From positions 4,128,878 through 4,192,877 of the forward strand of contig BCIO01000002.1 in assembly GCA_001599975.1 (NCBI GenBank): a stretch of 64,000 bases of DNA. Direction: 5' to 3'. Made by a program: the position numbers and the translations under genes. This document shows positions 22,881 through 29,335 of this stretch, piece after piece. This stretch comes from Cystobasidiopsis lactophilus. Lineage: Eukaryota > Basidiomycota > Agaricostilbomycetes > Agaricostilbales > Chionosphaeraceae. Numbering within the stretch: the stretch's first letter is position 1; every line of letters starts with the position of its first letter. The notes under the pieces were generated by a model that saw only the letters and a program-made list of their open reading frames with translations, was not told the origin of the DNA and did not search any database.

Positions 22881-23086
22881 ACGAACGCCTTCGTTTCTCT
22901 TGCAATGCCAGCATTGCCCGCTGCTGCCTCCTATACACTCTGTGCAGGCCCTGGCCTAAACAGAGAGACCAGGTCACGCCACGCCGCCTTAATGACCTGT
23001 GAGACAAAAAATGACGCAGCCAAAGAAAAACAGTGTGCCCCAACTCCTCTCGGATTTTCTTCCTTTGCCTCCAAGTAGATCAAAAT

Positions 23087-25242
23087 ATGCGAACATACTT
23101 CCCTGCAGCTCTAACGCTGTTGGCCGCCGCCAATGCCTCGCCCATTCGCCGGCAAGCAGTCTCCTCCGAGTCTGCGTCCGATTCGAGTGTGGCCTCTGCC
23201 TCGGCTTCCGCTTCCGCCCCAGCGGCTTCTTCCACGGTCGTCTATAACTTCACCTGCGCCGACCCATATCATTTGACCTACACCGAAGAGCAAATGAACT
23301 TTGCCGCTTCCTTGCAAAGCGTCGAGGGCTTGGTCGGCAATTGGAGCGATTCAACGTGAGACATTGGCTGTTCCCATTTGGCAAGTTTGCTATTTATTAA
23401 CGAGAGAGCAATGCGGCAGGATATTTGGTGTGGTCTCTGCGACAGGCGATGGAATCACTGCGGGCTCCACCCGAACCGTCCTCTTGTTGGTGTTCTTGCT
23501 GTCCAGGCTGTCAACAGTTCCTGACTCTGTTTACTACAAAAAAGCCCTGCGACCAGCGTCTCCAGCGACGAACAGCTGACCAACTACACCGTAATCACTG
23601 CCTCTGGGGCCATCAACGAGACCTGGACCTCCAGCAGCACTTCGACGCTGGACTTTGGCACTTTCACCATCTCGAACTACACTTCGGAGCTCCAGATCTA
23701 CACCAATGACACGGACCCTTCGCAGACAACGATCAAGTGGTTCTCCAACTACTGCGCCTCGAACATGGCCAGCGCCCAGGCTTACATGGAAGGCTACGCA
23801 TCGTCAGCTTTCAACAACGTCAGCACCACCTTGTCGGGAGGAGCCAGCTCTGGAATGTCTTCCGGTGCTCCCTCCATGGCCACTTCGGCTCCAGCGTCGT
23901 CCGCGTCGGCTTCCATGTCTGGCACCGACCTCGTTCCAGTGCCGCCACCAGTCACTTCTGGCCTACTTTCGTCAGCCGCCTCGTCTTTAGCTTCATCGGT
24001 TGGATCGGTGTCTTCGGCAGTCGTCTCCTCAGCATTGGAATCTGGCAGTGGCGTGGCACCCCTCCCAGTGCCAGTGACCCCGTCTGCAGCATCTTCAGAC
24101 CTCAGCATGGCCAGCGCTTCTGCTTCCAGCGTCGTGTCATCTGCAAGCAGCCTTGCAAGCGAGGCGTCCTCAAGCGCTGTCTCCTCGTCCGGTATCGATT
24201 CAGCAGCATCGTCATCCGGCGAGGCCTCCTCGTCGGGCGCCGGCCTGGTCCCTGTGCCCATTCCGACGTCTGGCGCTCTCAGCTCGGCATCATCCGCTGT
24301 CGACTCAGCTTCAAGCGTCGCTTCTTTGGTGTCTAGCTCTGCTTCCAGCGAGGCATCCAGCGTGGCCTCCGCATCTGGCTCCGACGCCAACGCCTCCACT
24401 CTAAGCGACCTTTCTTCCGCCAGCTCTTCCGCTCTGTCCTCGGCCAGTAGCGCTTTAGCAAGCAGCTCTTCCGAGAGCAGCGCGTCTGCCGGTGTCACCC
24501 CAGCCCCCGTCCCAGTTCCGGGTCCTGGCGGATCATCGGGCTTCAGCAGCGCCAGCGAGACTTCGCCGCCGGCTTCTGCTTCCGAAAGCGTGTCCCTCAG
24601 CTCGCTGCCTGACTCGACCACTGTCATCTCGATGCAGTCCGTCAGTGGCTCGTCGTCTGGCGATGTCTCTCTGAGCACTGCCGTTGTGCCGGGCGGCGTG
24701 TCCGCCATATCTTCTTCTTCGGGCATGTCTGGCTCTTCGGCTGTCAGTGGATCAGATTCTGGATTGGCCAGCTCGGGCATTTCGGGAAGCGGGATGAGCA
24801 GCGCTAGTGGCTTGAGTGGCAGCGGCAGTGCTTCGCTCTCGCCCTCGGCATCCTTTTCGGCGAACCCTGCTTCGCCCACCGGCGGCAGTCTCATTGTCAA
24901 CACTCCTGCGTCGCTTGTTCAGTGCGAGCCTGTTGAGTAAGTTGCCTCTCAAACCGCGATGGGTTGGCAGGACTTTTCTAATCTTTCTGCCGCAGGCTCA
25001 TGTACTCTGGAGGCACAGCGCCATACTTCTTGAGCGTCATTCCAGGCGGTATGATCTCGGCACCGGCCATTGAAGAGTTCCCGGAGCAAAGCATTCCTGG
25101 CTCCTACACTTGGGACGTCAACGTGCCCAGCGGAACGGCCGTCACCTTCAAAATTACAGATGGTACTGGCGATGTCAACTACTCGGCTCAAGTGATGGTC
25201 CAGCCAGGAACGTCGACCGATTGCTTGGCTCCGGCGGCATGA
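23087..25242 (+). CDS. Secreted Ser/Ala-rich cell-surface protein
   Basis: At least four exons start MRTYFPAALTLLAAANASP, a clear signal peptide followed by an RRQ basic site. A first ordered domain (YNFTCADPYHLTYTEEQ ... GDGITAGSTRTV ... LTNYTVITASG, many NxT/S sites) precedes about 300 residues that are nearly all Ser/Ala/Gly/Pro/Val, presumably heavily O-mannosylated. The final exon codes a compact domain (LMYSGGTAPYFLSVIPGG, YTWDVNVPSG, DGTGDVNYSAQV) that ends near a Cys. Two-domain proteins of this sort occur in basidiomycete cell walls. No GPI signal is visible at the C-terminus, so it is probably released or wall-bound. The intron at about 23515-23555 is placed tentatively because the frame before it (TVLLLVFLL) looks unusual. 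Confidence 0.65.
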
Positions 25243-25361
25243 TTGGGACTAGACACGGACAATTCCTGCCATCATCTAGAGGCCAAGCCGCCATTGTAAA
25301 ATTCGACCAAATAAATAGCTTAGTCAATGCACTTCAGCCTGGCGTACAGCCATCTAATTGC

Positions 25362-26771
25362 TCAAACTCCCACAGCGGCCTTGACTTGGGCCAAGCCAGA
25401 CGCTGCGGCATTGGTGACCGCCTGGGCCGCGCTGGTCAGGACATTCTTCTCGTCCGCGAAGAAGACGTAGCCACTGTAATAAAAGACAATTTAGCGACCG
25501 TGTGCCGTCAAGATCAAGGGACCGAAACGTACAAGTTGGTCGAGGGGTCGTTGTAGCGCTTGCGGTCTGAAACAAGGCTTTGTTAGTTCGAGGACATACG
25601 GAGACCCAGAAAGAGAACACACGGTCCAGCGCATCGATCTTCTTGACATCCTCCGCGCTCAGCTCGAGAACGCCTTGGTTCTCCTTGATGCGGTCGGGGT
25701 TTTCGCTGGTGGTCAAGGCCGTTAGATTCGTGGCGGCATAACACTCAAATGAAACATACGATTTGGGGATGACAGAGTACTCGTGCGCCATGCCCCAAGA
25801 GAGAACAACCTGGCCAGCCGTGTGGCCAGTGCGAGCCGCAATCTCCTTGACGGCCTCGGTGGCCACAATCTTCACATCGCCCTTGGCGCCATCGTAGATG
25901 GGGTTCAAGTTGCCGAACGGGCTGTAGGCAGTCACTGTAATGCCCTGCTCTTGCAGCCATTTGGTGTACTCGAGCTGTGCGAGGTAAGGATGGAGCTCCA
26001 ATTGGATGTTGGCCGGCTTGATCTTGGCACTCTTGATGAGGTCCTCCCTGCGAAAAAAAGAGAGAGTTTGAGCTCGATACAAATCTGGCTAGGGCCGGCA
26101 GAAGCCCGCCAGCCCTGACAGAGTGAAGGTTCGGAGAACTTACGTCTCGCTGCGGGTGAAGTTCGAGATACCGATGTTCTTGACTTTGCCGGTGTCCAGA
26201 AGTTTCTCCATGGCGGCCCACGTCTCCTTGTAGTCAACGGTGTCGCGAGCGGCGGCGCCATTGATCTTGGGGAACTTGTCATCGCCCGGGATGAAAGAGG
26301 ATGGCCAGCTGCAAGCCAAACGGAAGAGATCATCAGAGGAGTGGAATAAATTGAGAAGACGCCGAAAGACTTGCTGGATGAGATAGAGGTCAAGGTAATC
26401 GGTGCCCAAGTCGGCCAAAGTCTTGTCGAGCGCCTTCTCGACCTCTTCGGGCCTATGGCAGTTGTTCCATAGCTTTGGTTTTCCATATCAGATTTGGAGA
26501 CAGACGCTCGAATGCAAAGCGGCCCTACCTTGGAAGTGATCCAAATGTTGTCCCGGCTGACGCCAGATCGAGCGATGCCCTCGCCGACCTCTTTCTCGTT
26601 ACCGTAGATGGAAGCGGAGTCGATCAAGAGGTAGCCCGCCTTGAGCGCTGTCTCGACAGCCTCCTCGACCTTTCCAGGCTTGCTCTGCCAGCAGCCATAG
26701 CCGAAGAGAGGAAGCTGCTTTTGCGGGTTGGTGCTGTTGGGCAAGGGAATGGTGCGGGTGTAAAATGCCAT
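25362..26771 (-). CDS. Aldo-keto reductase (AKR family)
   Basis: About seven exons encode a full (alpha/beta)8 reductase. It starts [13 protein letters not shown] and reads [17 protein letters not shown]. The catalytic tetrad is all present: Asp and Tyr in IDSASIYGN, Lys in WITSK, and His in LYLIHWPSSF. The His codon is split by a GC-AG intron (26309-26374). Cofactor and fold motifs follow: [34 protein letters not shown], and the NADPH-binding IPKS ... ENPDRIKEN. The family reduces aldehydes, ketones or sugars with NADPH; the substrate cannot be told. The C-terminus ends AAVGV at 25364-25362. Confidence 0.85.
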
Positions 26772-28261
26772 GCTGATTCACAAAATAGGCGGCCGTTCTT
26801 GTACAAGAGTCGTCGGAGCGAAGAGAAAGGGAAAGAACGAGTCGGAGTCGCATTTCAACTTTTTTGCCGCGTCGCAGCTCGTCATCGGTTACAAAATTGG
26901 ATGTTCGTTGGGGCCAAGGTGGGCAACAAAGTGAGTGCATATAATCATTAGTGCACAGTTTACAATGCTCGACGAGGAAAATTAGAGCCCCAGAGATTAC
27001 AACCTTTGAGAATTGGGCATTTTGGAACAGTGGCGGCGGCAAGTGAGGGATGGTGGCGGAACGGTAGACAATGGCCCCCAGAAGGATGAGAGATGTCGAA
27101 AGATGAAGGTGGGAAAGCGCGAGGGATCTGCAAGGATGTGCTGGGCGAAGCTATCAGCAGAGAGGGGAGCTCAGTCGAGACGAGACTCACAGCAGTGCCT
27201 CGGGCCCCATCGCACATGCACATGCTTTTCGCTACGAAGAGGCTGAGTGTCTTCGGCCAGAGGTGCGAGGAGTGGGTGGAAGCTTGATGTGTAGAACTGG
27301 CAACGCAGACTCGGCTGTCATGCCTGCTCTCACAAGGGAAAGGTTAGGCCGATCCTCGATGACGACTCCAGAAGGCGAAGCTCACCAAGATAACAGTGAA
27401 GACAACCGTCGACTCTGCGAGCATGGCCGCAGATCTTCTTTGGGCTGGGGCTGATCGACGCTGCCGACGCTGCTTTCCTGCTCGAGCTCCTTGACCAGAG
27501 GCGCATCTTGAACGGTGATGGCTCGTGAAGCGCAAGAGAGTCATCGGGGCAGCATCGACTTGTAGCGCAAAGTCTAGTAGGCAGAGGCCACGAAGGAAGC
27601 CACGAAGGAAAGAGCTGGCCTCTGTCTTGCAGCTAGCTCTGCCCGCTTCGCAGGAACCCTGAAAATCTACGGCATGGTAGTAGCAGCCAGACTAGGTTGA
27701 ACTAATAAGCAGCAAACTGGAAAGAATGACAGAAAAGGCGGGCGAGAAACGCCGCAGCCAGCCCGCGAGCAATTGCAACGGGCAAAGACATCTGCTAGTA
27801 CGGCAAGGCAAGATCTGAGTGCGGGGTGCCGTAGAAGCCACGCGATTCGAGGTTGCTTGTACTGCGTCATTGGCAGGTTGCTAAATTTGCAGGTGAAAAG
27901 GGAGGCAGGCGACGCAAAGGAATTTGGCCAGAGAGGACGCGTCTCTGCGCTGGGAATTGCCCATTCGCCACCAATTGGGACATGCGAGGAGTACAGAAAC
28001 GCATCAGAAGGCTTCAAATGGCGACATTGGGTGGTGGGTTCTCGATCAGAAGCAGGCTGGCCGCGCGAGGCCCACGGCGGACTAATTCGCTCCCGACCGG
28101 GTGCGCGCTCGGTTTGCTCCAGACATCCATGTTTAACTGCCAGACATCTGCTAGAGCTTTAAATCTGAGGGTTGAGGACTACATGAGTGTGGAGAGTGGT
28201 CTGCTTGCTTTAGTCCTGCCGTTTTTGCCATGATTCTGTGTCTCATTCGGCCTTGGAGCTC
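26772..28261. other. Gene-poor stretch of about 1.5 kb
   Basis: Several frames of 60-130 residues exist on both strands, for example a minus-strand MLAESTVVFTVIL hydrophobic segment near 27400. None has consistent splice sites, domain or composition. Most of it is likely the upstream region of the strongly promoted secreted repeat gene, together with the AKR promoter. Confidence 0.4.
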
Positions 28262-28268
28262 TATAAAA
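28262..28268 (+). promoter_or_regulatory. TATA box of the secreted repeat gene
   Basis: The sequence TATAAAA lies 80 nt before the ATG at 28342 and is followed by a pyrimidine-rich leader (ttccttcttcagtcc). It is the clearest TATA element I noticed in the window. Fungal genes with TATA boxes are usually inducible or highly expressed. Confidence 0.6.
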
Positions 28269-28341: not shown

Positions 28342-29335
28342 ATGCGCTCTTTCATCATCTCCTGCCTTGTCCTCAGTGGCGCCCTGGCTGCTCCCATTGG
28401 CGAGTTTGCTGCCCGTCAAGGTTCGTCTCTTTGCCTTTCCTCTCAACCTCCTCTTTGACGCATAAACTTACAGCTGCTCTCGAAGGTTCCATCGCCAAGC
28501 GAGCTGCACCTGCCTTGCCCGATGGTGAGCATCTCCCTCTTGATCCTTTGTCCACGTCGAACCTAAAACGCATTGGGCCACGCAGTTTCAGCGGTCTACG
28601 TGGATGCGAACTCGGCGGTCGAAGGCCTCGTCGAAGCTGTCGCCGTCAACCTGCCGGGGCTAGCGCAGGTGTACGCGCGCAGCCAGCCCGCCTTGCCTGA
28701 CGGTCGGTCCTCCGGTCCTTTCCTTGTTGCGAACACAAAGTTGAAACCTTACACTCAAGCTTCTGCTGCCTATGTCGACCTCAATCCCACTGTCCAAGGC
28801 TTGGTCGACGCCATTGCTGTCAACTTGCCAGGTCTCGCGCAAGTTTATGCGAAGCGCTCGGCCCCAGCTCTGCCCGACACCTCCGCCGTGTTCGCCGATC
28901 TCAATCCAGTTGTCGAGGGCCTTGTGGACGCCATTGCTGTCAACCTTCCTCCAGTGGCCCAGGTCTACGCTCGGTCCATGGAGAAGCGCTCTGCTCCTGC
29001 CCTTCCTGATGGTTCGTCCCTCCCTTCCTTTACATTCTCAATCACCTCTAAGTTGTTATGGTCCTATAGCAAGCGCTGTTTATGCCGATTTGAACACGGC
29101 GGTCGAAGGGCTCGTCAATGCTGTCGCAGTCACTCTTCCGGGCGTCGCCCAAGTTTATGCGCGCTCAGCTCCAGCTCTTCCCGATTCTTCCGCCGTGTAC
29201 GCAGATCTCAATGCAGCTGTTCAAGGGCTCGTGGACGCCATCGCGGTCAATGTTCCCGGGTTGGCTCAGGGTGAGCTCTTTGCCCTTTCCATCTTGACTT
29301 TTGGCTCATCTTTGGTTCGCGCAGTCTATGCTTGA
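28342..29335 (+). CDS. Secreted, Kex2-type repeat protein (236 aa)
   Basis: Six exons are placed: 28342-28420, 28474-28524, 28586-28702, 28760-29011, 29070-29270 and 29325-29335. A signal peptide (MRSFIISCLVLSGALAAP) is followed by a short propeptide ending IAKR. Five tandem units of about 31-44 residues follow. Each has the pattern SAVY.DLN..V.GLV.AIAVNLPG.AQVYA, then (K)RS or RS, then APALPD. KR sites occur after IA, YA and ME; the other units have ARS. All introns before the repeats are phase 1 in the codon after ALPD, so exons are symmetric and the array can grow by exon duplication. Dibasic sites between hydrophobic repeats are the layout of Kex2-processed repeat proteins; some of these yield pheromones, repellents or cyclic peptides. 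No modifying enzyme was seen nearby, so the peptide's fate is inferred. Confidence 0.8.
28586..29335 (+). repeat. Five tandem protein repeats across four exons
   Basis: The units start near 28586, 28760, about 28880, 29070 and about 29188. Exons 4 and 5 each hold two units, exon 3 one. Units 2 and 3 are most alike (GLVDAIAVNLP). Unit 4 differs most (NAVAVTLPGV). Introns also share their position, which points to duplication of intron-exon blocks rather than slippage. Confidence 0.75.

Follow-up and report, generated by a model that had tools for sequence, protein, structure and literature searches.

Kex2-processed repeat proteins (KEPs) were defined by Le Marquer et al. 2019, whose survey of 250 fungal species retained 1193 KEPs, spread over 226 of the species (PMC6339444). 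In another survey, of 1461 strains, 1345 carried KEPs, with a total of 7878 (PMC7329392). Their putative peptides are reported to be longer in yeast-like Basidiomycota than the usual 9 to 24 residues, and basidiomycete KEPs with clear STE13 signatures have been proposed as hormones (PMC6339444). Removal of the Ste13 motif has been shown for basidiomycete KEPs expressed in Pichia, some of whose products appear to result from cutting after a single Arg, and the functions of KEPs are described there as largely unknown (PMC9769878). The repeats of Rep1 from Ustilago maydis, 34 to 55 residues long, give rise to amyloid-like surface-active fibrils (PMC4617103), and Rep1 appears in the account of Le Marquer et al. 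without a Ste13 signature (PMC6339444). At P1' and P2', cleaved Kex2 sites are enriched in acidic residues and in small ones (Ala, Val, and Leu) (PMC2515848).

The gene described here lies on the plus strand at 28342-29335 of the window, the whole stretch of 64,000 nucleotides that was analyzed, and is most likely an uncharacterized KEP with Ste13-type spacers. The initial annotation had presented it as an undescribed system, a claim that does not survive the KEPs of the two surveys, which include basidiomycete examples with a Ste13 signature according to PMC6339444; the gene may already be listed in the supplementary tables of the KEP surveys. Its anatomy is directly visible in the DNA. Read as a spliced frame, it begins with an ATG at 28342, ends with a TGA whose last base is 29335, and consists of six exons encoding a 236-residue protein with a signal-like segment (MRSFIISCLVLSGALA), a pro-region (APIGEFAARQAALEGSIAKR), and five tandem units, in that order:

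28262..28267, plus strand: TATAAA box, 80 nt 5' of the ATG and the sole TATAAA in the 300 nt upstream
28342..28420, plus strand: exon 1, signal-like N-terminus as judged by hydropathy (MRSFIISCLVLSGALA, A-x-A end) and start of the pro-region
28474..28524, plus strand: exon 2, pro-region, first KR, and spacer AAPALPD
28524..28677, plus strand: core of unit 1 (VSAVYVDANSAVEGLVEAVAVNLPGLAQVYA), first codon split by intron 2
28586..28702, plus strand: exon 3, unit 1 followed by R-SQPALPD
28702..28851, plus strand: core of unit 2, first codon split by intron 3
28760..29011, plus strand: exon 4, units 2 and 3, with KR after each
28879..28971, plus strand: core of unit 3, no intron in front
29011..29161, plus strand: core of unit 4, first codon split by intron 4
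29070..29270, plus strand: exon 5, unit 4, R-SAPALPD, and most of unit 5
29186..29332, plus strand: core of unit 5, with intron 5 inside
29325..29335, plus strand: exon 6, VYA and stop, completing unit 5

The five introns are each 53 to 61 nt long, have GT-AG borders, and are all in phase 1. With introns 2, 3, and 4 taken out, ALPD and the following SAV or SAA are separated by a single residue, just as at the two intron-less junctions, and in the spliced frame the signal, the pro-region, and all five units fall in exact register; because the register of the repeats is kept exactly once the introns are removed, we infer that they are spliced out. Introns in phase 1, in the codon following ALPD, had initially been placed before the units in general; phase and codon were right, but only units 1, 2, and 4 (three of the five) have such an intron, whereas units 3 and 5 lack one in front and intron 5 lies inside the last unit, separating AQ from VYA. 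Intron 3 (28703-28759) is the weakest of the five intron calls, being 57 nt long, in frame, and free of stops, with a GTCGGT donor and an AAG acceptor. It may also be retained or alternatively spliced; neither its retention nor that of intron 5 (54 nt) would shift the frame or bring in a stop.

Upstream of the frame, the TATA box reported earlier was found again (TATAAA at 28262), one of three TATAAA sequences on the plus strand of the whole window, and pyrimidines make up 74% of the 50 nt 5' of the ATG compared with 50% window-wide. The N-terminus of the protein (FIISCLVLSGALA, A-x-A end) holds its most hydrophobic windows of both 12 and 19 residues. A KEP is expected to have an ER signal peptide and no membrane anchor; judged by hydropathy, this end is a putative signal peptide and the precursor looks secreted.

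The units are 39, 40, 44, 39, and 31 residues long, in agreement with the five tandem units of about 31 to 44 residues described initially, and a repeat finder returned the same five copies (90 nt, 60 to 76% identity to the reference copy). Their cores are 70 to 83% identical over 30 compared residues, with 17 invariant columns, and the five 31-residue cores within 236 residues exceed the 15% or more of repeat sequence asked of a KEP. Among the 10 unit pairs, differences fall at 63 of 300 first codon positions, 34 of 300 second positions, and 193 of 300 third positions. Synonymous sites are saturated in eight of the pairs (dN 0.12 to 0.25 across pairs), and dN/dS is 0.15 for units 1 and 4 and 0.16 for units 3 and 5, the two unsaturated pairs. 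Fisher tests of synonymous against nonsynonymous differences, on rounded counts, gave P values of 5.7e-5 (units 1 and 4) and 3.5e-4 (units 3 and 5) for these least diverged pairs and of <1e-10 for two further pairs, four of the 10 pairs being tested overall. Synonymous saturation, low dN/dS, and the third-position bias indicate that the five units duplicated long ago and have since been maintained by purifying selection. The same data bear on whether the repeats are chance repeats in noncoding DNA, or a gene in decay. Such a reading might draw on the lack of any relative in the own-genome, viral, and prokaryotic sequences searched, but the concentration of divergence in third positions across 10 unit pairs, the two low dN/dS values, the open spliced frame, and the TATA box make it scarcely credible.

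The idea that the gene grew by duplication of exon blocks holds in part. It is anatomically sound, since exons 2 to 5 are all multiples of three in length and, together with the phase-1 blocks, fit that pattern of growth. At the DNA level the closest pairs are units 1 and 4 and units 3 and 5, and units 3 and 5 with their spacers are 77% identical over 110 nt, a pattern which suggests that exon 5 arose from an old block duplication. The further proposal that copy number changes in the present day is not supported, synonymous sites being saturated in eight of the 10 unit pairs, and the divergence of the units gives no sign of recent or ongoing change. Young exon duplication would predict similar introns; in comparisons of the pyrimidine-rich introns against 200 shuffles, z scores for the predicted pairs were 1.33 for introns 2 and 3, 0.98 for introns 2 and 4, and 2.31 for introns 3 and 4; the highest similarity was between introns 1 and 5 (z 3.34), a pair that young exon duplication does not predict.

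KR occurs at residues 36, 115, and 159, the three sites reported before, and single Arg at residues 25, 75, 154, and 198. The KR sites divide the units into two, one, and two, with unit 3 flanked by KR on both sides; KR thus stands at just two of the four junctions between units, and the other two carry a single Arg (VYAR|S). In silico cutting at KR only, with the signal peptide set at 17 residues and terminal K and R removed, yielded the pro-region, a doublet, a singlet, and a doublet of 17, 77, 42, and 77 residues. These are four fragments, the number required at minimum of a KEP after cutting at KR and RR. The rule of Le Marquer et al. asks for at least three similar fragments between Kex2 sites; three carry repeats if the C-terminal one is counted and two otherwise, and their pipeline sets the C-terminal fragment aside first. 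The three KR sites are followed by AA-PA-LP, SA-PA-LP, and SA-PA-LP, respectively, and then by D. This (A/S)A-PA-LP-D sequence is an X-Ala/X-Pro signature of the Ste13 type, as judged from the chain, which corresponds to the STE13 signature of KEPs and was absent from the initial annotation. The spacer ahead of unit 2, SQPALPD, departs from the pattern. The spacer KR-AAPALPD already stands before unit 1 and the protein terminates directly after VYA, so the repeat can be read as spacer plus core, with the core ending in VYA; the natural end of unit 5 is the end expected for the other units from cutting at basic sites. The own genome contains KR-xAPALP four times, three of these being in this gene, and contains the reversed control pattern nowhere. 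The fourth was rejected as a second precursor, as it sits in a frame of 26 codons that does not look coding. The Ala that occupies P2' in each of the three KR sites fits the trend for cut Kex2 sites, and Ser at P1' of two of them is not among the residues named for that trend in the account we draw on (PMC2515848).

Given these features, the precursor would be processed as follows, a scheme that we consider fairly probable on the signals in the chain. The signal peptide would direct entry into the secretory pathway, where Kex2 would cut behind each KR and, with less certainty, behind the lone Arg of VYAR|S. A carboxypeptidase would then strip the terminal basic residues and a Ste13-type dipeptidyl aminopeptidase would take (A/S)A-PA-LP off the new N-termini, releasing cores of 28 to 38 residues that end in AQVYA, are acidic and strongly hydrophobic, and contain no Cys, Lys, or Arg. 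Were the single Arg left uncut, unit 3 would be released alone and the other units in pairs. With cutting at the single Arg, the calculated monoisotopic masses are 3202.64 (unit 1), 3266.71 (unit 3), 2816.50 (unit 4), and 3173.62 (unit 5) for trimmed products and 3722.94, 3803.00, 3696.93, and 3709.92 for untrimmed ones, unit 2 having 3820.99 either way; with cutting at KR alone, they are 7682.02, 4306.22, and 7544.94 before trimming and 7161.72, 3769.92, and 6664.51 after it. Against such processing stand the two junctions without KR and the deviating spacer ahead of unit 2; runs of X-A and X-P are also not very improbable in a chain rich in Ala and Pro, and the three spacers are copies of each other. 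A secreted repeat protein left intact or almost intact, for example, a protein of the wall or surface with KR and Arg in its linkers or with only the pro-region removed, would account for the junctions without KR between units 1 and 2 and units 4 and 5, and a low-confidence AlphaFold model places one long helix in each unit. KR on either side of unit 3, the X-A/X-P dipeptides behind every KR, and the end of unit 5 at exactly VYA make this improbable. The spliced frame, the N-terminus as judged by hydropathy, and the KR sites instead support the secreted-looking Kex2-type repeat precursor proposed initially. It resembles KEPs (PMC6339444, PMC7329392, PMC9769878) in its signal-like N-terminus, its imperfect repeats, its KR sites, and the X-A/X-P dipeptides after KR, and differs in having KR at only half of its unit junctions and, by eye, in its motif, compared with those named in the portions of these papers that we cite.

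Candidate genes for the proteases are seen directly in the genome. Matches to S8 (contig C4, 870326-871161) lie beside matches to the P domain (contig C4, 869800-870115) on the same, minus strand, making this a candidate kexin-type gene and the putative source of the Kex2 that the KEP definition expects in the organism. Matches to DPPIV_N occur at one place (contig C3, 1291865-1293338), a candidate DPP-IV-type gene, and matches to S10 carboxypeptidases occur at several; both counts are lower bounds, and these family matches are candidates for Ste13 and Kex1, respectively.

The units had been called hydrophobic and almost uncharged. They are hydrophobic (GRAVY 0.78 to 0.98), but each 31-residue core is acidic, with two or three D or E, no K or R, and no Cys. 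The predicted peptides are probably acidic and hydrophobic and possibly surface-active, and surface or membrane activity of the units is plausible from their composition. A helix-type hydrophobic moment exceeded 95% of shuffles in six of 20 segment tests (uncorrected), including residues 10 to 21 in four of the five units, and a strand-type moment did so in two of 20 (uncorrected); with so few passes over all the segments tried, the amphipathicity signal is weak. Given exon 4 and an alignment made of exons 5 and 3, AlphaFold returned one long helix per unit at a mean pLDDT of 64.6, and the other four models had pLDDT values of 44 to 58; the prediction is too weak to interpret. The reading we lean toward, as somewhat better than an even prospect, is that of a Kex2-processed repeat precursor releasing hydrophobic, acidic peptides with a role at the surface. 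That the peptides would be surface-active or wall-associated outside the cell, by analogy with those of Rep1 in Ustilago maydis, is itself tentative. Rep1 is a secreted precursor with amphipathic imperfect repeats and Kex2 sites, a description that the present protein appears to share, but its 652 residues hold twelve repeats (PMC4617103), ten of them strongly conserved (PMC2515848), compared with five units here. The likeness is one of description, and the absence from Rep1 of the Ste13 signature present here (as given in PMC6339444) disfavors a close parallel.

The main rival, which we regard as unlikely, has the same processing release a peptide hormone or other signal that is trimmed by Ste13 and read by a receptor, in place of a surface coat. 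The Ste13 signature speaks for it, as this is the mark of hormone-like KEPs of Basidiomycota according to Le Marquer et al. (PMC6339444), and so does purifying selection on the units. The cores, however, are long and hydrophobic, with 17 to 30% divergence between them. Pheromone repeats are usually near-identical. Ascomycete alpha-pheromone precursors share the KR followed by X-A/X-P dipeptides and the repeated cores, but their cores are 9 to 24 residues long compared with the 28 to 38 predicted here, and this genome has STE3-type and no STE2-type matches. No STE2-type receptor was matched in the own genome, and its absence is not established because the control genomes were silent as well. 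The STE3 pheromone-receptor family was matched at two places (contig C4, 1994434-1995499, and contig C1, 2329659-2330512), with the control genomes silent; these matches point to a fungus and, weakly, to a basidiomycete. An aromatic lyase was looked for as well, and none was matched. A more specific version is a hormone-like system of a probable basidiomycete, in which hydrophobic peptides of about 32 residues, trimmed by Ste13, would act through a non-STE2 receptor; the content of the precursor would be tunable because the internal exons 2 to 5 are frame-neutral. Skipping an exon, or keeping intron 3 or 5 in frame, would alter the units made while leaving the frame intact. We consider this version a long shot.

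The suggestion that the products are RiPP-like finds little in the genome to sustain it. Like the precursors of ustiloxin-type RiPPs (dikaritins), the protein has a predicted signal peptide and repeats spaced by Kex2 sites (PMC9769878). UstYa (DUF3328), whose gene would be expected nearby in such a system, had no match in the own genome, where the control genomes were equally silent, and no recognizable RiPP cluster was found among the 20 of 71 coding-like window ORFs that were scanned, an aldo/keto reductase nonetheless being a near neighbor. Six of these 20 matched a Pfam family: Myb, bromodomain, aldo/keto reductase, a sugar-transferase motif, an amino-acid transporter, and DUF2433. The aldo/keto reductase-like gene lies upstream on the opposite strand (25357-26777, minus), its ORF at 25357-26088 matching Aldo_ket_red. 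Also nearby, at 23015-25239 on the plus strand, at least three ORFs encode a Ser/Ala-rich, secreted-looking protein that has a signal-like N-terminus closely followed by RR (ASPIRRQAV); its first two ORFs had no Pfam match at E 0.01 and the third none at 0.001, and it is possibly a wall protein.

When the whole protein was compared with the own genome at E ≤10, the five matches among the best candidates were all exons of the same gene, and no paralogue was found. Units 2 to 5 (154 residues) had no relative confirmed by tblastn among 25 pattern stretches of a viral collection (viral_contigs) or 298 of a prokaryotic one (genome_contigs), which says little because these collections hold no fungal genomes. 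Six Pfam families matched the precursor up to E 10, none above its own cutoff; the best two, GH3_N_vert (E 1.6e-5, 25.2 bits against a cutoff of 34.1) and DUF5811 (E 0.0015, 19.2 bits against 25), were read as noise from repeat composition. The best of three PDB matches up to E 10 had an E value of 0.22, and a text search of the literature for APALPD returned no paper.

As a precursor in which five old and selectively kept units are combined with a Ste13 signature and a mixture of dibasic and single-Arg junctions, the gene offers a clean test case for KEPs. Its natural C-terminus predicts the ends and masses of the products, and candidate kexin-type and DPP-IV-type genes are present in the same genome.
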